This document shows positions 10,117 through 63,840 of a stretch of DNA of 64,000 bases, piece by piece. Numbering within the stretch: the first letter of the stretch is position 1; each line of letters begins with the position of its first letter. The DNA is from Pseudomonadota bacterium (GTDB lineage Bacteria; Pseudomonadota; Gammaproteobacteria; Burkholderiales; Rhodocyclaceae). A model generated the notes under the pieces. The model saw nothing but the letters and a program-made list of their open reading frames with translations, ran no database searches and had not been told where the DNA came from. The stretch spans positions 121,875 to 185,874 of the forward strand of contig JAGTRW010000001.1 of the NCBI GenBank assembly GCA_018262095.1. Reading direction: 5' to 3'. The position numbers and the translations under genes were made by a program.

Positions 10117-10275
10117 ATGGATCTTCAAGAAATCAGGGCGTTGATCGATTTGGCCGCCGCATCCGGTTTGTCGGAACAGGATCTCGAGGAAAACGGATGC
10201 CGCCTGCGCCTATCGCGAGGCGATGCGCCAGCGCTCATCAAGACCGACGCCCCGCCCCCGGCAACGATCGATCGG
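10117..10275 (+). pseudogene. accB remnant (biotin carboxyl carrier protein, N-terminus only)
   Basis: From ATG 10117 the first 34 residues (MDLQEIRALIDLAAASGLSE, then a short tail ending RLSR) are a typical BCCP N-terminal helix and linker start. The frame then enters a proline-rich stretch and loses all similarity. The biotinyl domain with EAMKM is absent. Similarity switches, in another frame, to the end of a biotin carboxylase within about 60 bases. I read this as a deletion that joined the start of accB to the end of accC, leaving no functional product. Confidence 0.75.
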
Positions 10276-10459
10276 GCATGCGCCGACCCGCGCCGAGGCG
10301 CTGGTACGCATGCGGCTCGCCTTGCGGGAGATAGAGGTCGAAGGCGTCAGCACCAACATCCCTTTGCATCGCCAAATCTTGCGGGACCAAGCCTTCTGCG
10401 CTGGCGAGTTCGATATTCATCACCTTGAACTGCACTTGAGGCAACGGCAAGCCACATGA
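10276..10459 (+). pseudogene. accC remnant (biotin carboxylase, C-terminus only)
   Basis: In frame 2 the sequence reads RAEALVRMRLALREIEVEG, then STNIPLHRQILRDQAFCAGE and FDIHHLE, stopping at TGA 10457. This is the extreme C-terminus of acetyl-CoA-carboxylase-type biotin carboxylase (usual form: KTNIPLHR...GDYDIHYLE). The preceding roughly 400 residues, including the ATP-grasp domain, are missing. It is out of frame with the accB remnant to its left. It directly precedes pxpB, matching the common accB-accC-pxpB-pxpC order. Confidence 0.78.
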
Positions 10460-10522
10460 CCGCGTCCATTCACTTCATGCGAGCCAAGCCGGCTCGTGCC
10501 ACCTTGATGGAAAAAGCACCGC

Positions 10523-11197
10523 ATGACTAATACCAATCAACCAGAGCAAACTCCCCGGATCAGCCTGCTCGGCACGACAGCTTTGTTGTTCGAACCGCCG
10601 GGCAAAATGGACATCCATACGCAACGCCGCATCTGGTGGCTGGCGCGCGAGGTCGAAACCTGGCCCTGCATCAAGGAGGCGGTTCCAGGCATGAGCAATC
10701 TTATGTTGGTGTTCTCGACCCCGCCGCGCCACGTCGATTCGCTTGAGGTTGATCTCATCGCCGCCTGGGGCCGTGCCGAGGAACTGCATCTCGAAGGCCG
10801 GATCGTCGAGCTTCCCGTGATTTATGGCGGTGAGTACGGCCCCCATATCGCTGATGTCGCCGCGCATACCGGCCTGACGATCGAAGAAATCGTCAAGATT
10901 CACAGCGAACCGCTTTACACCGTTTTTGCGCTGGGCAGTCATCCTGGTTATTGCTATCTCGGCGGAATGGATCCGCGCATCGCGACGCCACGCCGTAAAG
11001 TGCCGATACGCGGCTTGCCGGGCGGCGCCGTGTCGATCGGCGGTGCGCAGACCGGCGTCTCGGCTTCGCCCGGCCCCAGCGGATGGAACACGATTGGACA
11101 TACCGCCCTGTCTTTTTTTGACCCGCTACGCGCGCCCCCAAGCTTGCTGGCTCCTGGCGACATGATTCGATTCAAGGTTGAAAGGACAATTAAATGA
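10523..11197 (+). CDS. pxpB: PxpB/KipI-like subunit (5-oxoprolinase-type, divergent)
   Basis: 224 residues. PxpB with PxpC and PxpA forms ATP-dependent 5-oxoprolinase; the family is also called carboxyltransferase domain subdomain C/D. GHPGYCYLGG-like text appears here as SHPGYCYLGGMDPRIATPRR where standard PxpB has GFAPGFPYLGG. The rest of the C-terminal domain (GGAVSIGGAQTGVSA, GWNTIGHTALSFFD, LLAPGDMIRF) is conserved. The divergent loop suggests a paralogous subgroup, possibly with another substrate. It overlaps pxpC by four bases (ATGA) and follows the accBC wreck. Confidence 0.85.
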   Translation: MTNTNQPEQTPRISLLGTTALLFEPPGKMDIHTQRRIWWLAREVETWPCIKEAVPGMSNLMLVFSTPPRHVDSLEVDLIAAWGRAEELHLEGRIVELPVIYGGEYGPHIADVAAHTGLTIEEIVKIHSEPLYTVFALGSHPGYCYLGGMDPRIATPRRKVPIRGLPGGAVSIGGAQTGVSASPGPSGWNTIGHTALSFFDPLRAPPSLLAPGDMIRFKVERTIK

Positions 11198-45553: not shown

Positions 45554-46618
45554 TCAGAGGAAAGACGGGAACGGCATGTCCGTGTCTTTGGTGAAGACGT
45601 CGTCGAAGCCGCGATAGAAGTGGAACTCCATGTCGTCCTTGTTATCGGGAAAGACGAACTTGCCGCCGACCTGCCAGATGTAAGGCTTGAACTTGTACTT
45701 GAGGCGATCCTTCTTCATGTTCCAGAGCATCGTGATTTCCATCGGATCGGCCATGAAGTTGGCCCAGATGTCGTGGTGGAAGGGGATGATCACCTTGGTA
45801 TTGAGCGCCTCGGCCATGCGCAGGATGTCCGACGAGGTCATCTTGTCGGTGATGCCGCGCGGGTTCTCGCCGTACGAGCCGAGCGCAACGTCGATCACGT
45901 GCTCGTTGCCGTGCTTGGCGTAACCGTTGGCGTAGTGCGAATCGCCGCTGTGGTAGAGGTTGCCGCCCGGCGTCTTGACCAGGTAGTTGACCGCGACGTC
46001 GTCCATGTCGATCGGCATCTTGTCCTTGGCGGTCTGTTCCTTGGGCAGCGTGATCATCATCGTGCGGTCGAACGATTCGAGCACCGTGAGTTCGATGTCG
46101 CCGATCTTGACCACGTCGCCGGGTTTGACGACGACGATGCGCTCGGCCGGGACGCCCCACTTGGTCCACATCTCGGCGCACGACTTCGGCCCGATGAACG
46201 GCACGCTGCTCGGGCAGTTCTTGAGCACCGCTGCGGCGACGTTGATGTCGATGTGATCGTTGTGCGTGTGCGTCGAGACGACGGCGTCGATCTGTTTGAT
46301 GGCGAAGGGATCGATGACGAACGGCGAGACGCGCAGATTGGGCTGCAGCGCGACGCAGCCGCTCATTCGCGCCATCTGGTGGTGCGGGTCCATCAGCGGG
46401 TTCTTCATCGAGCGCTTGCCGGTGCCGCACCACAGGTCGATGCAGATATTGGTATTGCCCTCGGTCTTGACCCAGATGCCGGTACACGCCAGCCACCACA
46501 TGGCGAAGGTGCCGGGCTTGACGACTTCGCGCTCGATCTCCTCGTTGAGCCAGGTGCCCCACTGCGGGAACGTGCTCAGCACCCACGATTCCTTGGTGAT
46601 TTCATCGACTTTTGCCAT
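45554..46618 (-). CDS. ulaG: L-ascorbate-6-phosphate lactonase UlaG
   Basis: 354 residues, exactly the E. coli UlaG length, and similar along its whole length ([86 protein letters not shown]). Metallo-beta-lactamase metal motif is [10 protein letters not shown] (HxHxDH). UlaG opens L-ascorbate-6-phosphate to 3-keto-L-gulonate-6-phosphate in the cytosol. There is no ascorbate PTS here; an FGGY kinase encoded divergently could supply the phosphate. Two-gene unit with the propeller-like protein, which is transcribed first. Confidence 0.93.
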
Positions 46619-46665: not shown

Positions 46666-47697
46666 CTAACTGACGAAATAGAGCGCGGCCTCGCCCTTCT
46701 CACGGTTGGCGGCAACGATGATGTCGCGGCGCTGTTCATGCAGCACGTAGACGTTGCTCGGACCGACGCCTTCTTCAATGACCACCGCTTCGAGTTGCGC
46801 CGGATCGGAGGGCGTCGCCTGCACGTAGAAAAGCTGTTGCTTGCCGCGTCGGCAGCCGCCGATGAAGACCGGCCGCCCGGCCAGCGTGGCACCGACGACG
46901 ACATGGTAGAACTCGGTGACTTCGGGATGCTCGTAGATCTTCTTGAACGCGCCGTCGATCTTCTTGTAGACGCGGAAGTACTCACCGTGAAACGGTTCGA
47001 TGGTCGCGAATTCGAGTTCGCCGTCGCCGTCGATGTCGATCGCCGAAATATCGCTGATCGGCCAATCCATCAACTGCGTTACGGTCCATTCGCCGCCGGG
47101 AAGCTGCGGTGGCGCAACCTCGAAGGCGCCCTGTTCGCAGGTGACCAGGCCGCACATCGCGCCATCTCGCACCAGCCGGCTATAGCCGTGGTTCTTGGTC
47201 AAGCCGTCCTTGAGCACGGAGACCTGCAGCGGGCCCGCGCCAGTGAATTCGCCGACCCAGATCTTGCCGGGATTCGACCAGTCTTCCTTGGACTCCTTGG
47301 TGGTCGCCAGCGTGCAACCTATGAAATAATGCCGGCCGCCGACCGTGAGCAGATCGAAACGGTGAATGTAGGGAAGCTGCAACACATCGCTGACCGCGTA
47401 GCCGCCGGTACTCAGCGGGCGCACATGGACGATTTTTGCTTCTTCCCATTGGAACATCTTGAAGAATTTCTGCACCGCCAGGAACTCGCCGTTGGTTCCC
47501 GGAATGGGAACGATCGACATCGTGCCGCCGGGGCCTTCCCAGACCGTATGCGACGACGCGTAGTCGGCGCCGGTCCACGCCAGACACGGCCCTTCGCCCT
47601 CGGTGGCGAGCAGGATTCTGGACTGACCGTCGACCACGATGCTGTTGGCCGAATAACAGCGGTTGAGCTCGGTCAGAAAGTGCTTTTCGATTTTCAT
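46666..47697 (-). CDS. Cytosolic FG-GAP/VCBS-like propeller protein linked to ulaG
   Basis: 343 residues from ATG 47697 (TGAGGA upstream; the track uses a TTG five codons earlier). No signal peptide or membrane segment. Repeating short blades with Trp/Gly turns and one clear FG-GAP calcium loop, ISAIDIDGDGELEFATIEP, suggest a beta-propeller. Other blocks: YIHRFDLLTVGGRHYFIGCTLATTKES and YHVVVGATLAGRPVFIGGCRRG. I do not know a characterised homologue. It is 47 bases upstream of ulaG in the same transcript and shares the kinase operator region, so a role in handling or sensing the same sugar is likely. Confidence 0.7.
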   Translation of the reverse strand: MKIEKHFLTELNRCYSANSIVVDGQSRILLATEGEGPCLAWTGADYASSHTVWEGPGGTMSIVPIPGTNGEFLAVQKFFKMFQWEEAKIVHVRPLSTGGYAVSDVLQLPYIHRFDLLTVGGRHYFIGCTLATTKESKEDWSNPGKIWVGEFTGAGPLQVSVLKDGLTKNHGYSRLVRDGAMCGLVTCEQGAFEVAPPQLPGGEWTVTQLMDWPISDISAIDIDGDGELEFATIEPFHGEYFRVYKKIDGAFKKIYEHPEVTEFYHVVVGATLAGRPVFIGGCRRGKQQLFYVQATPSDPAQLEAVVIEEGVGPSNVYVLHEQRRDIIVAANREKGEAALYFVS

Positions 47698-47867
47698 CGC
47701 ATTCGTCCTCAAGGATCAAAACAACTGCCGCAAACGATAATTTCAGCGAATTTTATATCATTTTGTTAAACAAATAAAGCGAGTAACGATCAAAAAGATC
47801 GTATTGAACAGTGCATTTTGCGAAATTTCGCTTTAGAATTCGCTGGGCGTTGGTAACTGGAGGTGGC
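47698..47867. promoter_or_regulatory. Divergent promoter region, propeller-ulaG versus kinase-deoR
   Basis: 170 bases, AT-rich compared with the neighbours. It contains the operator ACGATC-N5-GATCGT (47786-47802) and a 12-bp palindrome GCGAAATTTCGC (47820-47831). CTGGAGGTGGC before 47868 is the kinase ribosome site. I could not fix -35/-10 boxes with confidence. Confidence 0.6.
47786..47802. promoter_or_regulatory. Operator copy 1, ACGATC-N5-GATCGT
   Basis: A 17-bp dyad with an all-A spacer in the divergent region upstream of both the FGGY kinase and the propeller-ulaG unit. The same arms with the same spacer length recur upstream of the ABC transporter (52018-52040). The DeoR-family repressor encoded between them is the natural binder. 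Confidence 0.75.
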
Positions 47868-49376
47868 ATGAAGGGGATCATTACCGTCGATATCGGAACA
47901 ACCAGCATGAGGGCCATCCTCTTCGACAGGCAGGGCCTTGCCTTGCATATCGATCAGCGCGAAAACGTTCCGCAGTTTTTCAACGACGGTCGCGTCGAGC
48001 AGGACCCGGCGGCGTGGCAAACGATTGTCTGCGAGGTCCTGGGCAATTGCGCCAAGGTCGCCGCGACGAAAGGGGTCGAGCCGCTCTGCGTGTCGGTCAC
48101 CGCGCAACGTTCATCGGTGATTCCGGTCGATCGCGACGGCAAGCCGTTGCATCCCGCGATCATGTGGCAGGACAAGCGCTGCGCCGCGCTGGCGTTGGCC
48201 ATGGCGGAATACAACCCGCTGGTGTACGGCAAGACCGGGCTCAAGATCTCACCGGTTTTCTCGGCGCTCAAGATGACCTGGCTGCGCCGCAACCATCCCG
48301 ACATCTGGCAGAAGACGTACAAGATGATCGGCATCCAGGACTGGGTTCTCTACCTGCTGACCGGCCGCTTCGTCACCGACCAGACCTTTGGCAGCCGAAC
48401 CAATCTGCTCGACCTGAAAACGCGCGCCTGGGACCCCGATCTGCTGTCGCTGTTCGAGGTCGAACCCGGAATGCTTTGCGATCTCGTCGAGCCCGGATCG
48501 GTAATCGGCGCACTGACCCCGGCGATGGCCCTGGCGACCGGTCTGCCAGCCGGCTTGCCGGTCGTTTCAGCGGGCGGCGACCAGCAATGCGCGGCGCTCG
48601 GCCTTGGCCTGTTTTCGGGCGAACACGCCGTATCGAACACCGGAACCGGCTCCTACCTCATCGGCCACACCGAGCGGCCGGCATTCGACGAAAAGATGCG
48701 CTTGTCGTGCAATGTCTCGGCGGTTCCCGGCGCGTATATCGTCGAGGCCGCGGTACTGACTTCGGGAACGATCTACCGCTGGTTCGCTGAATCGATCTTC
48801 GGCGGCAACGCGCCCTCAAGAGACACTTTCGCCGCGGTCAACGCGGCGGCGCAGAGCGCGCCGCCCGGTTGCAACGGCCTGCTGCTCTTGCCCCATTTCA
48901 AAGGCTGCGGATCGCCGCACTGGGACCCCGACGCCAAGGGCGTATTTTTCAACCTGACACTCTCGACTTCGCGCGGCGACATGGCGCGCGCCATCCTTGA
49001 GGGCATTGCGGTCGAGATGAAGGGAAGCCTCGAGCTCGTCGAAAAGCTCTGCGGTACCGTCGCTTCGGTGACCGTCTCGGGCGGACTGACGCGATCGACG
49101 CTGTTTAACCAGATTCAGAGCGACATCTTCGAGCGCGCTGTCGTCCGCCTCAAAAATGATGAAGCCACCTCGCTCGGCGCCTGGATCGCCGGCGCCGTCG
49201 CGCTGGGCGTCGAAGACAATCATGCAGCCGCTTTCGCTCGCGTCAGCGACCCCGCTTCGGCGCAAAGCTACCAGCCCGACCCCGCCCTGCAGCAAACGTA
49301 CCAACGCCAGTCCCGCCAGTCGCAAGCGCTCTACCAGGCCTTGGCGTCCCCCGCCTTCCGCGAGCAGTTAAAGTGA
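47868..49376 (+). CDS. FGGY-family carbohydrate kinase
   Basis: 502 residues from ATG 47868. N-terminal ITVDIGTTSMRAILFD is the phosphate loop of the actin-like ATPase fold. SVTAQRSSVIPVDRDGKPLHPAIMWQDKR follows, and GGDQQCAALGLGLFSGEHAVSNTGTGSYL carries the catalytic Asp. GCGSPHWDPDAKGVFFNLTL and VSGGLTRSTLFNQIQSD are C-terminal landmarks. It phosphorylates a sugar or sugar acid. In this context L-xylulose, L-ribulose or L-ascorbate itself are candidates; the last would replace the usual PTS phosphorylation. First gene of the kinase-deoR unit. Confidence 0.88.
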   Translation: MKGIITVDIGTTSMRAILFDRQGLALHIDQRENVPQFFNDGRVEQDPAAWQTIVCEVLGNCAKVAATKGVEPLCVSVTAQRSSVIPVDRDGKPLHPAIMWQDKRCAALALAMAEYNPLVYGKTGLKISPVFSALKMTWLRRNHPDIWQKTYKMIGIQDWVLYLLTGRFVTDQTFGSRTNLLDLKTRAWDPDLLSLFEVEPGMLCDLVEPGSVIGALTPAMALATGLPAGLPVVSAGGDQQCAALGLGLFSGEHAVSNTGTGSYLIGHTERPAFDEKMRLSCNVSAVPGAYIVEAAVLTSGTIYRWFAESIFGGNAPSRDTFAAVNAAAQSAPPGCNGLLLLPHFKGCGSPHWDPDAKGVFFNLTLSTSRGDMARAILEGIAVEMKGSLELVEKLCGTVASVTVSGGLTRSTLFNQIQSDIFERAVVRLKNDEATSLGAWIAGAVALGVEDNHAAAFARVSDPASAQSYQPDPALQQTYQRQSRQSQALYQALASPAFREQLK

Positions 49377-49386
49377 GGAAAACACA

Positions 49387-50187
49387 GTGAAAGTGAGCAA
49401 CCAGCGACCGCCGACGACCGTCTCCAATTACCGCCACAAGAAAATCCTGGAGATGCTGTACCAGCGAAAATCCGTCTCTGCCGACGAACTGGCCGCGGAA
49501 TTCGGCGTCTCCAAGATCACCATCCGACGCGACCTCGACGCCTTGGCCGGCGACAAGTTTCTCGAGCGTACGCGCGGCGGCGCCGTTTCAGTGTCCGGCC
49601 TGAGTTTCGAGGAGTTTTTCGAGGAAAAGGACCATTCCGCCAAGAAGGAAAAGAGCCTGATCGGCCGCTATGTCGCCGCGCTGGTCGCCGAAAACGAAAC
49701 CGTCTTCGTCAATGCCGGATCGACGACGCTCGAGGTCATCCGCCATCTGCAGGGCAAGAATGCACGCATCGTCACCAACAACGCCGCCTGCCTCTCGCTC
49801 GATCTCGATCCGCATCAGGAGTTGATCCTGCTCGGCGGCGACTACCGCATGCAGTCAAAGTCGCTGGTCGGCGACCTGACCATCAACAGCCTGCGCCCGA
49901 TCTTTTCGAGCATCACCGTGCTCGGCATCAATGGCGTGAGCATCAAGAAGGGATGCACCAGCGCGGTACACCAGGAAACCAGCGTCAACAAGGCGATGAT
50001 CGAAAATTCAAGCGGCAAGGTGATCGTCGTCGCCGACCATACCAAGATGAACAGCGTCTCAAGTTTCCTGACCTGCCCGCTCAACCGCATCGACATGATC
50101 GTCACCGACTGGCTGGCACCGCTTCAGTTCTGCGAAGAACTCGAAGCGTCCGGGCTATGCGTCGTCAGAGTGGCGGAAGAAGCTTAG
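49387..50187 (+). CDS. DeoR-family transcriptional repressor
   Basis: 266 residues from GTG 49387 with GAGG overlapping the kinase end. The helix-turn-helix is KILEMLYQRKSVSADELAAEFGVSKITIRRDLDALAGDKFLERTRGGA, typical DeoR. The effector domain has VFVNAGSTTLEVIRHLQGKNARIVTNN and VLGINGVSIKKGCTS, the phosphosugar-binding isomerase-like fold. It likely senses a pathway phosphosugar and binds the ACGATC-N5-GATCGT operators. UlaR, the enteric ascorbate repressor, belongs to the same family. Confidence 0.9.
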   Translation: MKVSNQRPPTTVSNYRHKKILEMLYQRKSVSADELAAEFGVSKITIRRDLDALAGDKFLERTRGGAVSVSGLSFEEFFEEKDHSAKKEKSLIGRYVAALVAENETVFVNAGSTTLEVIRHLQGKNARIVTNNAACLSLDLDPHQELILLGGDYRMQSKSLVGDLTINSLRPIFSSITVLGINGVSIKKGCTSAVHQETSVNKAMIENSSGKVIVVADHTKMNSVSSFLTCPLNRIDMIVTDWLAPLQFCEELEASGLCVVRVAEEA

Positions 50188-50222: not shown

Positions 50223-50918
50223 TCAGTTCTGCCCGTAGTACGCGCCGGGGCCGTGCTTGCGGAAGAAGTGCTTCTCAAGCAGATGCTGCGGCATCGGTGG
50301 CAGGTTCTTTTCCAGTTGCAAACTGAGCAAGGCCATGCGTGCGGTCAGTTCGAGCACGGCCGCATTATGCACGGCGTCGTTGGCATCGCTGCCCCAGGCG
50401 AAGGGGCCGTGGTTGGCCACCAGAACGACCGGCATATGACGCGGGTCGATATTGCCTTCGCGGAAGCGCTCGACGATCGCCAGCCCCGTTTCGGATTCGT
50501 ACTCACCGGCCGTCTGCTGCTGCTTGAGCTGCCGCGTGCAGGGAATCTCACCGAAAAAATAGTCGGCATGCGTCGTCCCCAGCGCGGGAATTCCCCGGCA
50601 GGCCTGAGCCCAGACCGTCGCCCAGGTCGAATGGGTATGCACGATGCCGCCGATCTGCGGAAAGTGGCGGTACAGTTCGACGTGCGTCGGCAGGTCCGAC
50701 GAAGGACGCAGCTTGCCTTCGAGAACACGGCCATCGGCATCGACGACGACCATGTCGGCCACTTTCATGGTTGCGTACGGAACACCGCTGGGCTTGATGA
50801 CGAAAGCGCCGCTCTCGGGGTCCTTGCCGCTGACATTGCCCCAGGTAAAGTCGACGAGACCTTGGCGCGGCAGTTCGAGATTGGCTTCGAGAACCTGCTC
50901 TTTGAGTGCTTCAAGCAT
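50223..50918 (-). CDS. ulaF: L-ribulose-5-phosphate 4-epimerase (UlaF/AraD/SgbE type)
   Basis: 231 residues from ATG 50918, joined to ulaE by a TAATG overlap. [68 protein letters not shown] and [22 protein letters not shown] give the zinc His set and phosphate-binding residues of the class II aldolase/epimerase family. It turns L-ribulose-5-phosphate into D-xylulose-5-phosphate, the exit into the pentose phosphate pathway. Length matches UlaF. Confidence 0.93.
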
Positions 50919-51772
50919 TATGCGTACCCTCCTTGGTGCAGACGTTCGCCGACCCACTGACGGGCCAGCGCAATTTCCTTGATCGGATCGGCGGCTTTCT
51001 CGGTCCACATTTCGACCAGAAACGGTCCCGCATAAGCCAGATCGTGCAGCGTTCTGAAGCAATGGACGAAGTCGACGCTGCCTTCGCCAAAAGCGATATC
51101 GCGGAAAGCTCCCGGAAAGTTCGGAGCGACCGGCAGCGTTTCCTTGACATGGACGCCGACGATTTGATCGATTCCAGCCTTCAATTCGGCGGCCACGTCG
51201 TTGCCCCAGGCGGTGAGGTTGCCGAGGTCCGGATAGACCATGAACCACGGCGACGGCAACCGCTCCTTGAGCACCAGGTATTTGCTGATCGAGTTGAGAA
51301 AGGTGGTGTCCATGATTTCGAGCGCCAGCGTCACCTGATGCTGCGCAGCGACCTGCAGCGCGCGCTCCATCCCCGCGTAGTAGCGCTCGCGGGATTCGCG
51401 CGTGGTCGGCTCGTAATAGACGTCGTAACCGGCAAGCTGGATGACGCGGATGCCGGTATCGCTGGCGAAACGAATCGCTTTCGTCATGAACTGCGCAGCT
51501 TGCGCCCGGATGCCCGGATCGGCGCTACCGAACGGTATCTTGCGGTGACCCGACAGGCACATCGAGGGAACCGGCACCTCGTTTTCGCGCGAAGCGCGGA
51601 AAAACGCCAAGCGCTCGGCCAGCGACCAGTCGAGGCGAGCCATGCGCTCAGGCGTTTCATCGACCGACAATTCAAGAAAATCATAGCCGGCACCGCGTGC
51701 GGCCTTGAATCGTTCGCCCCAGGTCATATCCTTGGGCAGGGCCTTTTCGTAAATACCAATCGGATTTTCCAT
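50918..51772 (-). CDS. ulaE: L-xylulose/L-ribulose-5-phosphate 3-epimerase (UlaE/SgbU type)
   Basis: 284 residues from ATG 51772 (GAGAGGG upstream), the same length as E. coli UlaE; the track extension to 51895 is rejected. [100 protein letters not shown] and VHVKETLP are UlaE hallmarks with the metal Glu/Asp/His set. It converts L-xylulose-5-phosphate into L-ribulose-5-phosphate for UlaF. First of a two-gene minus-strand unit divergent from the ABC transporter. Confidence 0.93.
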
Positions 51773-52081
51773 CAAACCCTCTCGCTTTGGGGCCTGCAGT
51801 GTAATTTCGGCGGCCGAAAATGTAAAGAAAGAAAAGCACAAAGTGATCGATAACAGAACACAAAGCGCCGAACCAGCCTCATTTTCAGGCAACACGGCAC
51901 GCCGAACGATGCCGCTCGCCGACTCTGTTTATCGCCGTATTGCGTTGATTCTAGGGGCCTATTATTTTATCCGAAATTTATTGCCAAGAACGACAATTTG
52001 ATTATAGAATGGTTCCATAAACGATCATATTGATCGTTTAGTGCATCCATGTTCATGGCGTTTTTTTCGAGGGGAAAAGAG
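51773..52081. promoter_or_regulatory. Divergent promoter region, ulaEF versus ABC transporter
   Basis: 309 bases without a gene, AT-rich near 51960-52040. It holds operator copy 2 (52018-52040). AGGGGAAAAGAG precedes the transporter ATG. An AAGTGATCGATAACA stretch near 51840, close to ulaE, is only half-similar to the operator and I do not count it. Promoters for both directions must lie here. Confidence 0.6.
52018..52040. promoter_or_regulatory. Operator copy 2, TAAACGATC-N5-GATCGTTTA
   Basis: A perfect 9-bp-arm dyad, 23 bases long, 41 bases upstream of the binding-protein ATG. The inner arms and spacer length are the same as the site at 47786. Two independent copies upstream of functionally related units make this a credible regulon operator. 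Confidence 0.8.
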
Positions 52082-53026
52082 ATGGCAAAGACAAAATTGA
52101 TGGCGATGCTGACCGCCTTGCTGGTCACCGCAAGCGGGGTCGCGACGGCGCAGACCAGCTACAAGATTGGTTATTTACCGAGCACCGTCGGACAGGCGCT
52201 GACCCAGGCGTGGCGCGTCGGCATCGAAAACGCGCTCAAGGACAAGAAAAACGTCACGATGCAGTCGCTCGACGCGCAAATGAAAGCGGAAATCCAGGTC
52301 ACCATGATGGACGACTTCATCAACCAGGGTTACAACGCGATCATCCTGCAGCCGATCGACGCCGCGGCGCTCACCGCCAGCGTCAAGAAAGCCGAAAGCA
52401 AGGGTATCCCGGTGATCACGCTCAACACCGACACCATGCTGCCGCACGCTGCCTGCGTGACGATGGACGATACCGGTGCCGGTTACATGGTCGCCGAAAA
52501 CGTCGGCAAATCGCTCGGCGGCAAGGGCAACGTCGCGATCCTGCAGTCGCCTCCTGGCGCCCAGGCCGGCGTCGAACGCGAAAAGGGATTCCGCGCGGCA
52601 CTCGCCAAACAGTATCCGAACATCAAGATCGTCGGCGCCCAGAATGCCCAGTGGAACAAGGACAAGGGCATTGAGATCATGAACAGCTTCCTGCAGGTCA
52701 ACAAGGAGCTCGACGCTGTCTTCGCAGTCAATGACAATATGGCCGAAGGCGCAATGATCGCCGCCGAATCGGCAGGCCGTCTCGGCCAGATCAAGATCTG
52801 GGGCTTCAACGGGCAAAAGAGCACGCTGGCGCTGATCGAACAGGGCAAGATCACCGGCACCGCGTATACCAATGCCTACAACCAGGGTGGAATGGCGGCG
52901 AAATATGCGATGGACCTGCTGACCGGCGCCAAGAAGAAGGGCGCGGCGACCGAGATCATCAAGGTTCCGCCGTTTGCCGCAACCAAGGATACGGTGGCAC
53001 AAATCAAGGCTGAAGATCGCTGGTAA
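52082..53026 (+). CDS. Sugar ABC transporter periplasmic binding protein (ribose/rhizopine type)
   Basis: 314 residues from ATG 52082 (track start upstream lies past the operator). Signal peptide MAKTKLMAMLTALLVTASGVATAQT. Periplasmic binding protein type 1 fold: IGYLPSTVGQALTQAWRVGIENALKD, FINQGYNAIILQPIDAAALTASVKKAESKGIPVITLNTD, ILQSPPGAQAGVEREKGFRAAL, AVFAVNDNMAEGAMIAAESAG. Receptor of the transporter that probably imports the sugar or sugar acid used by the ula-like enzymes. A stem-loop follows its stop. Confidence 0.92.
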   Translation: MAKTKLMAMLTALLVTASGVATAQTSYKIGYLPSTVGQALTQAWRVGIENALKDKKNVTMQSLDAQMKAEIQVTMMDDFINQGYNAIILQPIDAAALTASVKKAESKGIPVITLNTDTMLPHAACVTMDDTGAGYMVAENVGKSLGGKGNVAILQSPPGAQAGVEREKGFRAALAKQYPNIKIVGAQNAQWNKDKGIEIMNSFLQVNKELDAVFAVNDNMAEGAMIAAESAGRLGQIKIWGFNGQKSTLALIEQGKITGTAYTNAYNQGGMAAKYAMDLLTGAKKKGAATEIIKVPPFAATKDTVAQIKAEDRW

Positions 53027-53101: not shown

Positions 53102-54102
53102 GTGTCGGTCAGCGCTATTCGACGACTCATCCTGGTTGGGCTGCTGATATCCATCGGTGCCGCCCTGTCCATTGCCAGCCCAAGCTTCCTCACCCTCGAC
53201 AACCTGATGACGCTGCTGCAGGAAGCATCGCTGACGGGCATTGTCGCCATCGGCTTTACGCTGGTGCTGATCACCGCCGGAATCGACATGTCGATCGGCG
53301 CAGTGATCGCCATCACCTCGATGGTCTGCGTCAATTTCATTTCCTATACCCACTTGCCGGCCTATGTTTTCATCCCAATCGCGCTTGCCGGCGGCTGCCT
53401 GATCGGCTGGGTCAACGGCTTCTTCATCACTTATTTCAAGCTGCCCGAATTCATCGTCACGCTCGCCACGCGAGGGATTCTGGCCGGCCTGGCGCTGATC
53501 GCGGCGGTCAAGGACGACCAGGGCTTCGTCAAGAACGTCTTCATCCAGGACGAGGTCTTCCTCTCCTTCGGCGAAACGGTCGGCCCCGTCTATATCGTGA
53601 CCATCGTCTTCTTCGTGCTGGCGTTCGCCACCCAGCTCTTCCTCAAGCGCACGCGCGCCGGAACCAACGTCTACGCGACCGGCGCCAACCCGACCGCGTC
53701 GCGCCTGTCCGGAATCAATACCGACCGCACGCTGATCGGCGTCTATATGTTCTCGGGCTTCTGCGCGGCGCTGGCGTCGATCTTCCTGTCGGCACGAATG
53801 ATGACCGCGATGCCCGATTTCGGCATCGGCTCCGAAATGGACGTGATCGCTTCGGTGGTGATCGGCGGCACGCCATTTACCGGCGGCGTCGGCGACATCT
53901 GGGGAACGGTAATCGGCACGCTGTTCCTGGCGCTGATCAAGAACGGCATCCTCAAACTGGGGCTATCGCCGTACATCCAACCGATCGTGATCGGCGGAAT
54001 CATCGTCGTGACGGTAATCGCCGACGTCTGGTACAAGGGCTTCGCCGAAAAGCGGGCGACCCGCATCGCACGTCAGAAACAGGCTTTGGCCAAGGAGGGC
54101 GT

Positions 54103-54106
<4 letters not shown>
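53102..54106 (+). CDS. Sugar ABC transporter permease (RbsC family), first
   Basis: 334 residues from GTG 53102 with CCGGAGGTACC upstream. About 9-10 membrane segments. LTGIVAIGFTLVLITAGIDMSIGAVIAITSMVC is the RbsC hallmark, with GTNVYATGANPTASRLSGINTDRTLIGVYMFSGFCAALASIF and IGGTPFTGGVGDIWGTVIGTLFLALIKNGILKLGLSPYIQPIVIGGIIV. Overlaps the ATPase gene by four bases. Pairs with a second, different permease gene after the ATPase. Confidence 0.93.
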
Positions 54107-55625
<1,519 letters not shown>

Positions 55626-55629
<4 letters not shown>

Positions 55630-56621
55630 AAGCTACCAACTGGCGGCGACTGATCGTCGATTTTCGCTTGTTCGGGATATTGTTGCTGATGATGGTCGTA
55701 CTCTCCTTCGTCTCGGACCGCTTCCTGACCGTCGACAACCTGACCAACGTGTTGTGGTCGGTCTGCCTGATCGGCATCATGTCGGTCGGCGCGATCTATG
55801 CGCCGATCACCGGCGGCATCGACCTGTCGGTCGGATCGATTGCGGCGCTCTCGGGAATCGTCGCCAACGTACTGATGAACGTCTACGGACTCAACTGGAT
55901 GCTCGCGATCTTCATCACGCTAGGCATCGGCGTGCTGATCGGCTGGGTCAATGGCATGGTCACGACCAAGTTCCTGGTTCCGGCGTTCATCGTCACGATG
56001 GCCGCCAAGACCTATCTGTTCGGCGTCGCCATGCTGGTGTCCAACGGCGACCAGATCACCATCATGCAGCCGAAGGAGTTTCTGATCATTGGCGTCGGCA
56101 AGTTCCTGGGAATTCCGATTCCGATCTACATCATGATCATCCTCGCCGTCGGCAGCCACATCCTGCTCAAGCACACGGTCTTCGGCCGGCAGGCGATCGC
56201 GGTGGGCGCCAACGAAGTGTCGGCAAAACTGTCGGGCGTCAATCCCGACCGGACGCGAATCATCGTTTATATCATCTCGGCGGTGACCGCGACGATTGCC
56301 GGAATCGTCATGGCGTCGCTGACCCAGCAGGCCTTTGCGATGAACGCCACCGGTTACGAGTTCGACGTGATTACCGCCATCGTCATCGGCGGAACCAGCC
56401 TGATGGGCGGCAACGGGTCGGTGACCGGAGCGCTGATCGGCGCGGTGATGGTCGGCTTCATCAACAACGGACTCAACCTGCTTGACATGCCTTCGTCATT
56501 TCACCCGATCGCCACCGGCCTGGTGATTCTGATCGCGCTGATCATGAACCAGGGCTTCAGCCTGCCCGGCGCCGTCAAGAAAGTCCTGGCGCGATTCAGG
56601 ACCGCCGAATCGCTCAAATAG
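55626..56621 (+). CDS. Sugar ABC transporter permease (RbsC family), second
   Basis: 331 residues, 9-10 membrane segments. IGIMSVGAIYAPITGGIDLSVGSIAALSGIVAN is the RbsC signature. GRQAIAVGANEVSAKLSGVNPDRTRIIVYIISAVTATIAGIVMASL and IGGTSLMGGNGSVTGALIGAVMVGFINNGLNLL follow. It differs enough from the first permease to suggest a heterodimeric channel. Last gene of the transporter operon, followed by a strong stem-loop. Confidence 0.93.
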
Positions 56622-56659: not shown

Positions 56660-56941
56660 ACCTGCCCAGGGCATCGGCGACTCGGCGGCGACCGGCGTCC
56701 CGAATGCGCTCGGCGACTCGCTCGCTTGCCGCTACGCCGGCGCACTGCGCTGCCTTGATATGGATCATGAAGCGGGCCGAAAAGCCTCATTTCCCTTGCC
56801 TTGACGCGGTGGATTCAGTAGCATCACGGGTTCGCGGCAACTTTGCAGCTGCTGCTCGGCGCAAGGCTTACAACCGGTTACGCATTGCGTAATTGCGGTT
56901 AAAAAATGCCCCCCAATTTCTTACAATCCGAAAGGTTTATC
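56660..56941 (+). promoter_or_regulatory. Upstream region of methylmalonyl-CoA mutase with a 15-bp dyad
   Basis: About 280 bases with no gene I can support. TTACGCA-T-TGCGTAA at 56878-56892 is a perfect dyad 50 bases before the mutase start, a plausible operator. The regulator is not in the window. GAAAGG precedes the ATG at 56942. Promoter boxes were not clear. Confidence 0.45.
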
Positions 56942-59107
56942 ATGTCAAACGAGAGCACTCCTCCGCTACCTGACTCATCCAATCTCGACGCCTGGAAAAA
57001 GGCCGCGACCAAATCGGCGCCCGGCGGCGATGTCGAGAAACTCAACTGGATTACGTCGGAAGGCATCACCGTCAAGCCGCTCTACACCAAGGCCGACGTG
57101 CAGGATCTGCCCTACGCCGACACGCTGCCCGGCCTGCCGCCTTACCTGCGCGGCCCGCAAGCGACGATGTACGCGGTTCGTCCCTGGACGATCCGTCAAT
57201 ACGCGGGTTTCTCGACCGCTGAAGAATCCAATGCCTTCTACCGCAAGGCGCTGGCCGCCGGCGGCCAGGGCGTCTCCGTCGCTTTCGACCTGGCCACGCA
57301 CCGTGGTTACGACTCAGACCATCCGCGTGTTACCGGCGACGTCGGCAAGGCCGGTGTAGCGATCGACTCGGTCGAAGACATGAAGATCCTGTTCGACAGC
57401 ATCCCGCTCGACAAGGTCTCGGTTTCGATGACCATGAACGGCGCCGTGCTGCCGGTCCTCGCCGGCTACATCGTCGCCGCCGAAGAACAAGGCGTGCCGC
57501 AGGCGCAGTTGTCGGGAACCATCCAGAACGACATCCTCAAGGAGTTCATGGTTCGCAACACCTACATCTACCCGCCGACGCCGTCGATGAAGATCATCGC
57601 CGACATCTTCGGGTACACCGCCAAGAACATGCCGAAGTTCAACTCGATCTCGATCTCCGGCTATCACATCTCGGAAGCCGGCGCCAACCAGGCGATCGAA
57701 CTGGCCTTCACGCTGGCCGACGGCCAGGAGTATGTGCGTACCGGTATCGCCTCAGGCATGGACGTCGACACCTTCGCCGGTCGCCTGTCGTTCTTCTGGG
57801 CAGTCGGCATGAACTTCTACCTCGAAATCGCCAAGATGCGCGCCGCCCGTATGCTGTGGCACCGCATCATGACCAAGTTCGACGCCAAGAGCCCGAAATC
57901 GATGATGCTGCGCACGCACAGCCAGACTTCCGGCTGGTCGCTCACCGAGCAGGATCCGTACAACAACGTCGTGCGTACGACGATCGAAGCGATGGCCGCG
58001 GTCTTCGGCGGCACCCAGTCGCTGCACACCAACGCGCTCGACGAAGCGATCGCGCTGCCGACCGCGTTCTCGTCGCGCCTGGCGCGCAATACGCAGCTGG
58101 TGATTCAGGAAGAAACGCACATCTGCAACGTCGTCGATCCGTGGGCCGGTTCGTACATGATGGAAAAGCTGACCCAGGACATGGCCGACAAGGCCTGGGC
58201 GATCATCGAAGAAATCGAAGCGATGGGCGGCATGACCAAGGCCGTCGAATCGGGCTGGGCCAAGATGCAGGTCGAAACCTGCGCCGCTGAAACGCAGGCG
58301 CTGATCGATTCGGGCAAGCGCGTCATCGTCGGCGTCAACAAGTACAAGCTCGACAAGCAGGACGCGATCGAAATCCGCGACATCGACAACGCCGCTGTTC
58401 GCGAGTCGCAAATTGCTCGCCTCAAGACGATCCGCGCCAAGCGCGATTCGGCTGCGGTGCAGGCTGCGCTCGACGCACTGACCGAATGCGCCAAGACCGG
58501 CGAAGGCAATCTGCTCGACCTCACGGTCAAGGCCATGCGTCTGCGCGCCACGGTTGGCGAAGTGTCGGACGCGCTCGAAAAGATCTTCGGCCGCTTCCGC
58601 GCCAACAACCAGACCATTTCGGGAGTTTATGGAGGCGTCGTGGAAGGAATCGAAACCTGGGAAACGATCAAAGCTGACATCGAGAAATTTGCCGCCGCGC
58701 AAGGCCGTCGCCCGCGCATCATGATCGCCAAGCTTGGCCAGGACGGCCATGACCGCGGCGCCAAGGTCGTCGCTACGGCGTTTGCCGACCTGGGCTTCGA
58801 CATCGACGTCGGCCCGCTCTTCCAGACCCCGGAAGAAGCGGCGCGCCAAGCGATCGAGAACGACGTGCACGCCATCGGCTGTTCGTCGCTCGCTGCCGGT
58901 CACAAGACGCTGGTTCCCCAACTGATCAAGGCTTTGAAGGACCAGGGTTCCGACGACATCATCGTTTTTGCCGGCGGCGTCATCCCGGCGCAGGACTACG
59001 ATGAGCTCTACGCCGCCGGCGCCAAGGCGATTTTCGGACCGGGAACGCGCATCGAAGACTCCGCGCGCAAGGTACTCGAAGAAATCAACAAGGCAGTCAA
59101 GGCTTAA
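56942..59107 (+). CDS. mcmA: Methylmalonyl-CoA mutase (single-chain)
   Basis: 721 residues from ATG 56942; the track adds 12 poorly supported residues. The N-terminal catalytic barrel has [68 protein letters not shown] and [27 protein letters not shown]. The C-terminal 130 residues form the B12 domain with [11 protein letters not shown] (DxHxxG, lower-axial His). It interconverts succinyl-CoA and (R)-methylmalonyl-CoA by a radical mechanism using adenosylcobalamin. Full-length fused form, 18 bases before meaB. Confidence 0.97.
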
Positions 59108-59125
59108 ATCAGGAGTTGGCAATAG

Positions 59126-60127
59126 ATGGACGCGAGCAACCCCGAAGGCGCGCTTGACGCTGCCGATCAGCAACTGGTCGACGGCGTCCTGGCAAAACAG
59201 CGGCGGTCGCTCGCTAAAACCATCACCCTGATCGAATCGACGCGCGCCGATCATCTGCTGCGCGCACAGAAAGTTGTCGCTGCATTACTGCCGCACACCG
59301 GACGTGCCATCAGAATTGGCATCTCCGGTGTTCCCGGTGCCGGAAAATCGACCTTCATCGAAGCGCTCGGTCTCTGGCTGATCGAACAGGGACATCAACT
59401 GGCCGTACTCGCGGTTGATCCGTCCTCATCAGTTTCTGGCGGCTCCATCCTCGGCGACAAGACGCGAATGGAGTTGCTCTGCCACCACAAGGAAGCTTTC
59501 ATTCGTCCCAGCCCGTCAGCCGGATCGCTCGGCGGTGTCGCCGAAAAAACGCGCGAAGCCATGCTCGCCTGCGAAGCCGCAGGCTACGACGTCATCCTCG
59601 TCGAAACGGTCGGCGTCGGCCAAAGCGAGACGACGGTGGCCGGCATGGTCGACATGTTTGTGCTGCTGCAATTGCCGAACGCCGGCGACGATCTGCAGGC
59701 GATCAAGAAAGGCATCGTCGAGATCGCCGATCTGGTCGCCATCAACAAGAGCGACATCGACCCCCAGGCCTCGGCGATCGCGCGCTCCCAGTGGAAGCAG
59801 GCGCTGCACATGCTGCGCCCGGCGTCGCCCAACTGGCGCCCGCCGGTGATCGGCGTGAGTGCGCTCAAAAAGGAAGGCATGGTCGAGTTCTGGGGCGAAA
59901 TCGAACGCTTCCGCGCCGCCATGATCGCCAGCGGCGAACTCGAGGCAAAGCGCAAGAAGCAGGCGCTCAACTGGATGTGGAGCCTGATCGACTCAGGCTT
60001 GCGTCACTATTTTCACGCGCATCCGGCCGTGCACGCCGCACTTCCCGGCCTGCTGCACGACGTCGCCGAAGGCCGAACGACGCCCGGCGTTGCCGCCAAT
60101 CGGCTGCTGCACAGCCTGGAAATCTGA
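59126..60127 (+). CDS. meaB: Methylmalonyl-CoA mutase-associated GTPase MeaB
   Basis: 333 residues, with CAGGAGTTGG before the ATG. G1/Walker A is GISGVPGAGKSTFIEALG (about 64-81). LAVDPSSSVSGGSILGDKTRM, RPSPSAGSLGGVAEKTREAML, VETVGVGQSE (G3) and INKSD (G4, NKxD-type) are in order. MeaB is the G3E GTPase chaperone that gates cobalamin loading and protects the mutase. Position directly after the mutase confirms it. C-terminal dimerisation helices are present. Confidence 0.96.
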   Translation: MDASNPEGALDAADQQLVDGVLAKQRRSLAKTITLIESTRADHLLRAQKVVAALLPHTGRAIRIGISGVPGAGKSTFIEALGLWLIEQGHQLAVLAVDPSSSVSGGSILGDKTRMELLCHHKEAFIRPSPSAGSLGGVAEKTREAMLACEAAGYDVILVETVGVGQSETTVAGMVDMFVLLQLPNAGDDLQAIKKGIVEIADLVAINKSDIDPQASAIARSQWKQALHMLRPASPNWRPPVIGVSALKKEGMVEFWGEIERFRAAMIASGELEAKRKKQALNWMWSLIDSGLRHYFHAHPAVHAALPGLLHDVAEGRTTPGVAANRLLHSLEI

Positions 60128-60190
60128 AATCGTTTTGAACCGTCGGCATTTGGCGTAGTCTTATCCCCGCCAACAACAGGGGGATTTTTA

Positions 60191-61723
60191 ATGCACGACA
60201 TCATCCAGCAGCTTGCCGACAAGCGCGGAGCAGCTTGTCTCGGCGGTGGCCAAAAACGTATCGACAGTCAGCACGCCAAAGGCAAACTCTCGGCGCGCGA
60301 ACGCATCGAGTTGCTGCTCGATGCCGGCTCCTTCGAAGAGTGGGACATGTTCAAGGAGCATCGCTGCGCCGATTTCGGCATGGCCGAACAGCAGGTTCCG
60401 GGCGACGGCGTCGTCACCGGCTACGGCACCATCAACGGCCGTCTGATCTTCGTCTTTTCGCAGGACTTCACGGTCTTTGGCGGATCGCTCTCCGAAGCGC
60501 ACGCCGAAAAGATCTGCAAGCTGATGGATCACGCGATGAAGGTCGGCGCGCCGCTGATCGGCCTCAACGATTCGGGCGGCGCGCGCATTCAGGAGGGCGT
60601 CGCTTCGCTCGGCGGCTACGCCGACATCTTCCAGCGCAACATGCTGGCCTCGGGCGTGATTCCCCAGATTTCGCTGATCATGGGCCCGTGCGCCGGCGGC
60701 GCGGTCTATTCGCCCGCCATGACCGACTTCATCTTCATGGTCAAGGATTCTTCGTACATGTTCGTCACCGGACCCGAAGTGGTCAAGACGGTGACCCACG
60801 AGGAAGTGAGTGCCGAAGAGCTTGGCGGCGCGACGAGCCATACCAGCCGCTCGGGAGTCGCCGACTTGGCCTTCGAGAACGACGTCGAGGCGCTGATGAT
60901 GATGCGCCGCTTCGTCGGCTTCCTGCCGTCGAACAATCGCGTCAAACCGCCGCAATGGCCGGCGCAGGACCCCGCCGACCGACTCGACCACTCGCTCGAC
61001 ACGCTGGTTCCTGACCACCCCAACAAACCCTACGACATCAAGGAATTGATCCTCAAGATCGTCGACGACGGCGACTTCTTCGAGTTGCAGCCCGACTACG
61101 CCAAGAACATCGTGATCGGTTTCGGCCGCATGGACGGCTCGCCGATCGGCATCGTCGCCAACCAACCGCTGGTGATGGCCGGCTGCCTCGACATCAAGAG
61201 CTCGACCAAGGCGGCGCGCTTCGTTCGCTTCTGTGACGCTTTCAACATCCCGGTCGTGACCTTCGTCGACGTCCCCGGCTTCATGCCCGGCACCGCTCAG
61301 GAATACGGCGGAATCATCAAGCACGGTGCCAAGCTGCTTTACGCCTACGCCGAATGCACCGTACCCAAGATCACCGTGATCACGCGCAAGGCCTACGGCG
61401 GCGCCTACGACGTGATGAGTTCGAAGCACTTGCGCGGCGACGTCAACTTCGCCTGGCCGTCGGCCGAGATCGCGGTGATGGGTCCCAAAGGCGCGGTCGA
61501 GATCATCTTCCGCGAGGAAAAGGGAAATCCGGAGAAGCTCGCCGAGCGCGAAGCCGAATACAAGGCCAAGTTCGCCAATCCCTTCGTCGCCGGCGCGCGC
61601 GGCTTCATCGACGACGTCATCATGCCCAACGAGACGCGCAAGCGAATCTGCCGCTCGCTGGCGATGTTGCGCGACAAACAGCTCGAGAACCCCTGGCGCA
61701 AGCACGGCAACATCCCGCTCTAA
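60191..61723 (+). CDS. pccB: Propionyl-CoA carboxylase beta / methylmalonyl-CoA carboxyltransferase subunit
   Basis: 510 residues. [107 protein letters not shown] and [28 protein letters not shown] are carboxyltransferase signatures with both oxyanion glycine pairs. It moves CO2 between carboxybiotin and propionyl-CoA/methylmalonyl-CoA. The biotin carboxylase gene follows, supporting PccB. The same protein type is the alpha subunit of sodium-pump methylmalonyl-CoA decarboxylase, and a beta-type subunit lies at the right edge, so a dual role is possible. Confidence 0.93.
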
Positions 61724-61740
61724 CGATTAACCGCATTCGA

Positions 61741-61840
61741 CACAGAGTGCACAGAGACACGGAGAGCACAGAGAGAGCATCGACTTTCTTTCATTGTCTC
61801 TCCGTGTTCTCTGTATCTCCGTGGTCTCCGTGTTAAGAGA
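61741..61840. repeat. Imperfect long inverted repeat (CACGGAG/CTCCGTG family)
   Basis: The gap between pccB and pccA is largely an imperfect hairpin. The left arm repeats CACGGAGAGCACAGAGAG and the right arm CTCTCCGTG, TTCTCTG, ATCTCCGTG, GGTCTCCGTG. Each arm also repeats its own ACAGAG/CGGAG units. It resembles the widespread intergenic CACAGAGACACGGAG-type repeats of betaproteobacteria as I remember them. It can fold in the mRNA between two subunits of one enzyme. Confidence 0.65.
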
Positions 61841-61851
61841 GGTTATAAAAA

Positions 61852-63840
61852 ATGTTCAAGAAAATTCTGATAGCCAACCGCGGTGAAATCGCCTGCCGCG
61901 TGATCAAGACCGCCCGCCGCATGGGCATCGCCACCGTCGCCGTATACTCGGAGGCAGACAAGGACGCACTGCACGTCATCAGCGCCGACGAAGCCGTCTG
62001 CATCGGTCCGGCAGCGGCTAAAGACTCTTACCTTTCGATCGACAAGATCATCGCCGCGTGCAAGCAGACGGGCGCGCAGGCCGTCCATCCGGGCTATGGC
62101 TTTCTCTCCGAGAACCAGGAATTCTCAAAGCGCCTTGAAGACGACGGCATCATCTTCATCGGACCCAAGCACTACTCGGTCGCCGCGATGGGCGACAAGA
62201 TCGAGTCGAAGAAGCTGGCGATCGCCGCCAAGGTGAACACCATTCCCGGCTACAACGATTCGATCGCCGACGCGCTTGAGGCGGTCGAGATCGCCAAGGG
62301 AATCGGCTATCCGGTGATGATCAAGGCGTCGGCCGGCGGTGGCGGCAAGGGACTGCGCGTCGCGCACAACGATGCGGAAGCGTTCGAAGGCTTCCATTCG
62401 TGCCGCAGCGAGGCCAAGGCGAGTTTCGGCGACGATCGCGTATTCATCGAAAAATACGTCGAGGGCCCGCACCACATCGAAATCCAGATCATCGCCGACG
62501 CCCACGGCAACACCGTTTATCTGCTCGAGCGCGAATGCTCGATCCAGCGCCGCCACCAGAAGGTCATCGAGGAAGCGCCGTCTCCGTTCATCGACGACAC
62601 GATCCGCCGCGCGATGGGCGAACAGGCGGTGGCGCTGGCCAAGGCCGTCAGGTACCAGAGCGCCGGGACTGTCGAGTTCGTCGTCGGCTCGGACAAATCG
62701 TTCTACTTCCTCGAAATGAATACGCGCTTGCAGGTCGAGCACCCGGTCACCGAAATGATCACCGGGCTCGACCTCGTCGAGCTGATGATCCGTGTCGCCG
62801 CCGGCGAGCAACTTCCCTTCGTGCAGGGCGACATCAAGCCCAAGGGCTGGGCGATCGAATGCCGAATCAACGCCGAGGATCCGTTCCGCGGCTTCCTGCC
62901 ATCGACCGGGCGGCTGGTTCGCTTCCAGCCGCCGCTCGCCGTCGACGGCGAGGTGCGCGTCGACACCGGCGTCTACGAGGGCGGCGAGATTTCGATGCAC
63001 TACGACTCGATGATTGCCAAGTTGATCTGTCACGGTGACGATCGATCACAGGCAATCGTGCGTATGCGCGATGCGCTCAATGGCTTCCTGATTCGCGGCG
63101 TCGCCTCGAACATCCCCTTCCAGGCGGCACTGGTTCAGCACCCGCGCTTCGTTTCCGGAATCTTCACTACGGCCTTTATCGCCGACGAGTACCCCAAGGG
63201 CTTCGTCGCCGCCGACGTACCTTATGAAGACCCCGGGCTGCTGGCCGCGGTCGCCGCCTTCGCGCGCCGTCGCTACATCGACCGCGCGGTGCAGATCGGC
63301 GGCCAGATGACCGGCCATCCGCGCCGGGTCGGCAGCAACTGGGTCGTCGTCATCGAAGGGAAAAATTACCCGATGACGCTCGAAACGATCGCCGGCGGCT
63401 ATTCGATCGTCTGCGGCGGCAAGCGCTACGACATCGTTTCCGACTGGCTGTTCAGGGAGCTGGTCTTCAACGGCAGCTGCAACGGCAAGCCGATCTGCCT
63501 GCAACTCGAACGCGCCGGGCTCGAGTATCGAATCAGCCACTTCGGCAAGCAGGTCAAAGCCGTCGTGATGACGGCCAAGGCCGACCGCTTGCTCGCACTG
63601 ATGCCGGTCAAGGCACCGCCCGATCTATCGAAATTCCTGCTCTCGCCGATGCCAGGATTGCTGCGCGAAGTCTTGGTCCATGAAGGACAGCAGGTTCGCG
63701 CCGGAGAAAAACTGGCGGTGATCGAGGCGATGAAGATGGAAAACATCCTCAAGGCCGAGAAGGACTGCAAGGTCAAGCACATCGTCAGCGGCCCCGGCGA
63801 AAGCCTGTCGCTCGACCAGGTGATCGTCGAGTTCGAATAG
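61852..63840 (+). CDS. pccA: Propionyl-CoA carboxylase alpha (biotin carboxylase plus biotin carrier)
   Basis: 662 residues. Biotin carboxylase domain about 1-446: KILIANRGEIACRVIKTARRMGI, GYGFLSEN, KASAGGGGKGLRV (ATP glycine loop), ERECSIQRRHQKVIEEAPSP, EMNTRLQVEHPVTE. A linker/BT domain follows, then the biotinyl domain with EAMKMENIL (biotin Lys about 628). It carboxylates its own biotin with ATP and bicarbonate for PccB. Same direction as pccB, with the inverted repeat between them, and a terminator immediately after. Confidence 0.96.
   Translation: MFKKILIANRGEIACRVIKTARRMGIATVAVYSEADKDALHVISADEAVCIGPAAAKDSYLSIDKIIAACKQTGAQAVHPGYGFLSENQEFSKRLEDDGIIFIGPKHYSVAAMGDKIESKKLAIAAKVNTIPGYNDSIADALEAVEIAKGIGYPVMIKASAGGGGKGLRVAHNDAEAFEGFHSCRSEAKASFGDDRVFIEKYVEGPHHIEIQIIADAHGNTVYLLERECSIQRRHQKVIEEAPSPFIDDTIRRAMGEQAVALAKAVRYQSAGTVEFVVGSDKSFYFLEMNTRLQVEHPVTEMITGLDLVELMIRVAAGEQLPFVQGDIKPKGWAIECRINAEDPFRGFLPSTGRLVRFQPPLAVDGEVRVDTGVYEGGEISMHYDSMIAKLICHGDDRSQAIVRMRDALNGFLIRGVASNIPFQAALVQHPRFVSGIFTTAFIADEYPKGFVAADVPYEDPGLLAAVAAFARRRYIDRAVQIGGQMTGHPRRVGSNWVVVIEGKNYPMTLETIAGGYSIVCGGKRYDIVSDWLFRELVFNGSCNGKPICLQLERAGLEYRISHFGKQVKAVVMTAKADRLLALMPVKAPPDLSKFLLSPMPGLLREVLVHEGQQVRAGEKLAVIEAMKMENILKAEKDCKVKHIVSGPGESLSLDQVIVEFE

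Follow-up and report, generated by a model that had tools for sequence, protein, structure and literature searches.

What does a propeller-like protein do beside ulaG, in a locus where a single step of the Escherichia coli ascorbate route has no gene? In the window, the whole stretch of 64,000 nucleotides analysed here, the gene P0001 (46666..47697, minus strand) encodes 343 residues which, as the original prediction had it, carry one DxDxDG loop and no export signal. That prediction took the product to be a cytosolic propeller tied to ulaG and the neighbouring kinase, either an enzyme such as a lactonase or epimerase, or a sensor, and our analysis supports it in part. Translation begins at an ATG with GAGGA upstream, within GAGGACGAATGCG-ATG; a TTG at 47712 is an alternative, longer start. 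As the N-terminus is not hydrophobic and residues 3-10 form a strand fitting the fourth position of blade 7, a cleaved signal peptide is not expected.

Homologues of P0001 were found at 40 loci with 59-85% identity, and divergent relatives, including those of Spirochaetota, share 27-44%. An open reading frame kept over such distances is not due to chance, which confirms P0001 as a genuine gene. The close records come from Propionivibrio and Accumulibacter-type Betaproteobacteria. The family is rare, being present in one of 399 sampled genomes of the window's phylum (the window's own genome alone) and in 16 of the 393 genomes of a Spirochaetota survey. Neither PHROGs nor a tblastn search of plasmids with the propeller gave a match.

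The ascorbate locus and its missing step

ulaG lies 47 bp downstream of P0001 on the same strand (45554..46618, minus) and encodes the L-ascorbate-6-phosphate lactonase UlaG (NCBIfam NF008688, 644 bits against a cut-off of 306; 71% identity to E. coli UlaG). Divergently from P0001, with the two start codons 170 bp apart, runs the gene of an FGGY-family sugar kinase (47868..49376, plus), which is kept in nearly all ula-type loci; its identification as LyxK was rejected at just 23% identity. Further genes encode a DeoR-family regulator (49387..50187, plus; 29% identity to UlaR), an UlaF/AraD-type L-ribulose-5-phosphate 4-epimerase (50223..50897, minus; 62% identity to UlaF) and an UlaE/SgbU-type L-ribulose-5-phosphate 3-epimerase (50918..51778, minus; 57% identity to SgbU). 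The locus has no PTS. It carries instead a sugar ABC transporter, comprising a substrate-binding protein (52049..53026, plus; PF13407) and a permease, ATPase and permease (53102..56621, plus). The genes that follow at 56906-63840 encode methylmalonyl-CoA mutase, MeaB and propionyl-CoA carboxylase subunits by Pfam, a set fitting a propionate-making Propionivibrio.

An intergenic search for a shared operator yielded a weak motif. The palindrome GATCAAAAAGATC (47788..47800, plus) sits in the gap between P0001 and the kinase, and the related motif GATCAATATGATC (52023..52035, minus) in the gap between ulaE and the genes for the substrate-binding protein and transporter. The GATC-palindrome GATCANWANGATC is common to these two gaps, is similarly placed 5' of the kinase in several related loci, and is a candidate DeoR operator.

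E. coli handles ascorbate by PTS import followed by UlaG, UlaD, UlaE and UlaF (PMC3219644). Measured against these steps, UlaD is the only one without a gene in the window locus, and the activity missing from the pathway is decarboxylation. We consider it probable that P0001 fills this gap as a cytosolic, probably metal-dependent β-keto sugar-acid decarboxylase, a seven-bladed propeller resembling the fungal aldos-2-ulose dehydratase/isomerase (AUDH) that would act as a non-homologous replacement of UlaD. The epimerase once suggested for P0001 fits less well, as UlaE and UlaF are both present. To our knowledge, a propeller-fold decarboxylase is not an established kind of enzyme, and a search of the available literature for a propeller acting on 3-keto-L-gulonate found none.

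Predicted fold and conserved face

The AlphaFold2 model of P0001, built from a 32-sequence alignment, is all beta with 28 strands (pLDDT 92.6, pTM 0.91). Assigned to blades by their order, the predicted strands fit seven blades of four strands each, and the last blade appears in the model to be closed by the N-terminal strand (residues 3-10). Structure prediction and Foldseek agree with the propeller of the earlier view, and its cytosolic location and probable role as an enzyme are likewise supported. At the sequence level, Pfam FG-GAP matched one repeat of P0001 (E 0.0087; 16.4 bits, under the cut-off of 22.1), and above-cut-off FG-GAP matches in several blades of P0001 were not found.

Among the Foldseek matches listed, AUDH (PDB 4a7k, 4a7y, 4a7z; Pfam PF22301) has the highest query TM-score (0.81; probability 1.00, rmsd 4.1), while the lowest E-values belong to chains of the LGI1 complex (query TM ~0.70). 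P0001 and AUDH therefore share a fold by Foldseek at about 10% sequence identity. Sequence searches of the PDB with P0001 and a first profile as queries returned nothing useful; a profile of the divergent members ranked AUDH first at an insignificant E of 0.76. The PF22301 profile, which describes the AUDH propeller, reached two divergent members at E 4e-4 (20.5 and 20.7 bits, under the cut-off of 27) and did not match P0001. A distant kinship of P0001 and AUDH is likely, with the sequence evidence short of proof. AUDH acts on keto sugars, and Claesson et al. are said to have described in 2012 a zinc in its propeller that polarises the keto group. Its propeller domain is of the seven-bladed VCBS/FG-GAP type (PMC8023676). 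The two proteins differ in size and in chemistry: AUDH has about 900 residues with further domains and catalyzes a dehydration, whereas P0001 is the propeller alone and its operon contexts predict a decarboxylation.

Other activities are conceivable for such a fold. By query TM-score, no enzyme among the matches listed is closer in fold than AUDH, a dehydratase, and the ascorbate pathway of Ralstonia reportedly includes a WD40-like benzilic-acid-rearrangement enzyme, a propeller-like protein acting on 2,3-diketo-L-gulonate. That P0001 performs a comparable rearrangement or a dehydration is nevertheless very improbable, since UlaE, UlaF and a ketose kinase demand a pentulose and hence the loss of CO2. 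A second lactonase or a mutarotase for ascorbate or aldonolactones also seems improbable to us. β-propeller folds do occur among known lactonase families, ascorbate and tetronates form lactones, and Foldseek lists the putative 6-phosphogluconolactonase 4qrj; however, with a query TM of 0.55 this match is more distant in structure than AUDH, the lactonase originally suggested would be redundant with the UlaG supplied at the same locus, and the pathway would have no decarboxylase.

Conservation points to a catalytic face for the proposed decarboxylase. Twenty-three positions never vary across 26 sequences, the lowest identity being 29%; they include H112, H170, H237, H265, R113, R283, E33, D139, N169, S215 and N331. 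In the predicted model, His112 (codon 47362..47364, minus) starts strand A of blade 3 and is followed by the invariant Arg113, and His265 (46903..46905, minus) starts strand A of blade 6, placing both at the beginning of inner strands. His170 (47188..47190, minus), in an NHG motif, lies at the D-A junction of blade 4 immediately before such a strand, and His237 (46987..46989, minus) lies in the B-C loop of blade 5 within an HG motif that also appears in the weak AUDH alignment. Propeller enzymes usually have their active sites on the face of the D-A and B-C loops; here these loops are 41% invariant compared with 11% for those of the opposite face (calcium loop excluded; p 3e-6). The sole DxDxDG loop of P0001, DIDGDG at residues 221-226 (47020..47037, minus), was considered as a catalytic site and rejected: it is absent from one divergent member (L150) and is therefore probably structural.

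The same residues bear on a further reading, in which the propeller senses sugar acids or serves as a scaffold without being an enzyme. Scaffold roles are frequent among propellers (PMC8023676), and this one occurs in catabolic clusters, often adjoining regulators. However, the clusters usually have a DeoR or GntR regulator of their own, the invariant His, Arg, Glu and Asp residues are grouped on one face, and the decarboxylation step would stay empty. With DeoR at hand and loops that look enzymatic, the sensor role originally offered becomes less likely, and we regard a non-catalytic function as the least probable of the readings considered here.

Distribution of the propeller and of UlaD

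The gene set of the window (UlaG, FGGY kinase, DeoR, UlaF and UlaE) recurs with a varying transporter in most propeller loci, and in Pseudomonadota and Spirochaetota alike the neighbours of the propeller are mostly UlaG and/or UlaE/UlaF/FGGY/DeoR. UlaD was absent from the window and from every locus of the main survey. Searches of the window's genome and of seven other propeller-bearing genomes likewise yielded no UlaD, and it was absent from 27 of 28 further ones; the exception, G801, whose propeller locus has no UlaG, gave a weak UlaD-like match (26%, E 1e-10). UlaD occurs in none of the 24 genomes that contain both UlaG and the propeller. Conversely, among 99 genomes of another order UlaG is present in 14, all of which encode UlaD and none the propeller; the genomes compared are related and represent few independent events, so we give no formal probability for this mutual exclusion.

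The operons of Spirochaetota place the propeller in the same position. In L140 the gene order is UlaG, propeller, UlaA, UlaB, HPr, EI, UlaF and UlaE, a PTS-type arrangement that L141, L143 and L144 resemble. Within the operon region searched, these stretches contained no UlaD/SgbH. They also lack an FGGY kinase, an absence to be expected where the PTS provides the phosphate; the propeller's substrate would then be the 6-phosphate. L139 has the order FGGY kinase (LyxK-like, with 48% identity to its LyxK-like counterpart in L033), UlaF, propeller and UlaE, with no UlaD/SgbH gene, and is thus analogous to lyxK-sgbH-sgbU-sgbE of E. coli with the propeller in place of SgbH. The most divergent propellers, in L150 and L151 (~13.9-14.6 kb), have ABC transporter genes of the rbs type as neighbours, together with a protein distantly resembling UlaG (32-33%).

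Judged by mutual exclusion with UlaD and by operon position, the propeller stands at the decarboxylation step, which follows UlaG and precedes UlaE/UlaF. It holds the place of UlaD/SgbH in ula and yia-type operons alike and would, we infer, catalyze the same reaction. The two are otherwise unlike: no sequence similarity between them was detected, P0001 had no UlaD-type match in Pfam or NCBIfam, and UlaD is a TIM barrel of the OMP decarboxylase suprafamily, whereas the P0001 model is all beta.

Paralogues and the proposed reaction

Linkage to ulaG and the kinase, as originally claimed, is borne out, but an exclusive partnership of P0001 with ulaG had to be rejected. Four propeller genes but a single UlaG are present in the window's genome, and the other three copies reside in different sugar-acid operons. 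Paralogues lie with TRAP transporters, dehydrogenases of the erythronate/threonate type and dihydroxyacetone kinases. Of the three copies in the window's genome, that of L027 stands in the order DctP, propeller, DhaK-DhaL fusion, DenD, DctQ and DctM, with every gene other than the propeller assigned, and L026 reads TRAP, DenD and propeller (DenD 451 bits against an NCBIfam cut-off of 325, and 71% identical to that of L027). L025 contains GarR/LtnD-type dehydrogenases, DhaK, DhaL, the propeller and a glycerate kinase; NCBIfam names its first dehydrogenase 2-hydroxy-3-oxopropionate reductase, which we read as LtnD-like. Elsewhere, L033 combines TRAP, DenD and the propeller with a LyxK-like kinase, L039 and L149 an LtnD-type dehydrogenase with DhaK and DhaL, and L042/L043, L037 and L040 have TRAP transporters and no clear full pathway. 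A TRAP-adjacent copy (L083 8001-8940 and G017:C153:819-1755; L022, L023) matches as two separated pieces with 61% and 77% identity and may be decaying. In a tree of the propellers, ula-type and other copies cluster by context, with three context changes compared with about nine under shuffling, so that context has switched a few times. The same invariant site is found in ula and non-ula contexts and suggests a single kind of reaction.

Because a dihydroxyacetone kinase acts on a C3 ketose, CO2 has to be removed from a C4 keto acid beforehand, and the propeller is the candidate for this loss. Decarboxylation is the step common to the ula and C4-acid contexts. In the known tetronate pathway, the keto acid is isomerised by OtnI, phosphorylated by OtnK and decarboxylated by OtnC (PMC12540250). 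Enzymes of these three types were not seen in loci L025-L027 or L039. We liken the proposed role of the propeller to that of OtnI and OtnC together, which remove CO2 from 3-oxo-tetronate-type intermediates toward dihydroxyacetone phosphate (PMC12540250). The order of steps differs, as the aldolase-II-type OtnC acts after OtnK, whereas DhaK/DhaL in the propeller operons would act after decarboxylation.

The known products of DenD and LtnD are 2-oxo acids, which OtnI must isomerise (PMC12540250), so the C4 contexts would also need an isomerisation. This bears on the reading of the propeller as a keto-aldonate tautomerase or isomerase, which would convert 2-oxo to 3-oxo acids via an enediol and leave decarboxylation to proceed spontaneously or through another protein. 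The lack of an OtnI-type gene in L025-L027 and L039 would suit it, as would the polarisation of a keto group by which AUDH reportedly works. Yet in PTS-type ula operons UlaG already gives the 3-keto acid and the missing piece is UlaD, and we judge a tautomerase acting in place of a decarboxylase unlikely. In the L149 propeller operon, a LacAB/RpiB-type isomerase gene (10188-10664) is flanked by those of the LtnD-type dehydrogenase and DhaL, and its product could supply the 2-oxo/3-oxo isomerisation.

For the decarboxylase we favour, metal, substrate and reaction are inferred from fold and operon context. Ascorbate would enter through the ABC transporter and UlaG would open the lactone, after which the propeller would remove CO2 from 3-keto-L-gulonate, or from its 6-phosphate, leaving L-xylulose or L-xylulose 5-phosphate. 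The FGGY kinase would phosphorylate the ketose or may instead act earlier, its 23% identity to LyxK being compatible with either order of kinase and decarboxylase, and UlaE and UlaF would then yield D-xylulose 5-phosphate. By analogy with AUDH, the invariant histidines, which would sit at the mouth of the central channel, might hold a metal that polarises the keto group, with Arg113 and Arg283 possibly anchoring the carboxylate; CO2 would depart and the metal-stabilised enediolate be protonated. The paralogues may decarboxylate 3-oxo-tetronates or comparable acids, the products of DenD- or LtnD-type dehydrogenases, so that DhaK/DhaL or FGGY kinases receive dihydroxyacetone or a different ketose.

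More broadly, and here our confidence is evenly divided, these proteins may form a new family of bacterial AUDH-like propellers that decarboxylate, perhaps after tautomerising, C2/C3-keto aldonates of varied chain length, replacing UlaD/SgbH in ascorbate operons and both OtnI and OtnC in tetronate operons, along an undescribed route from aldonate through keto-aldonate and ketose to the kinase. If so, two unrelated folds would carry out one and the same step of vitamin C breakdown, and a propeller family without informative annotation would gain a specific, testable reaction. It would also explain ascorbate use by environmental bacteria lacking a PTS and annotate several orphan TRAP/dihydroxyacetone-kinase operons together.
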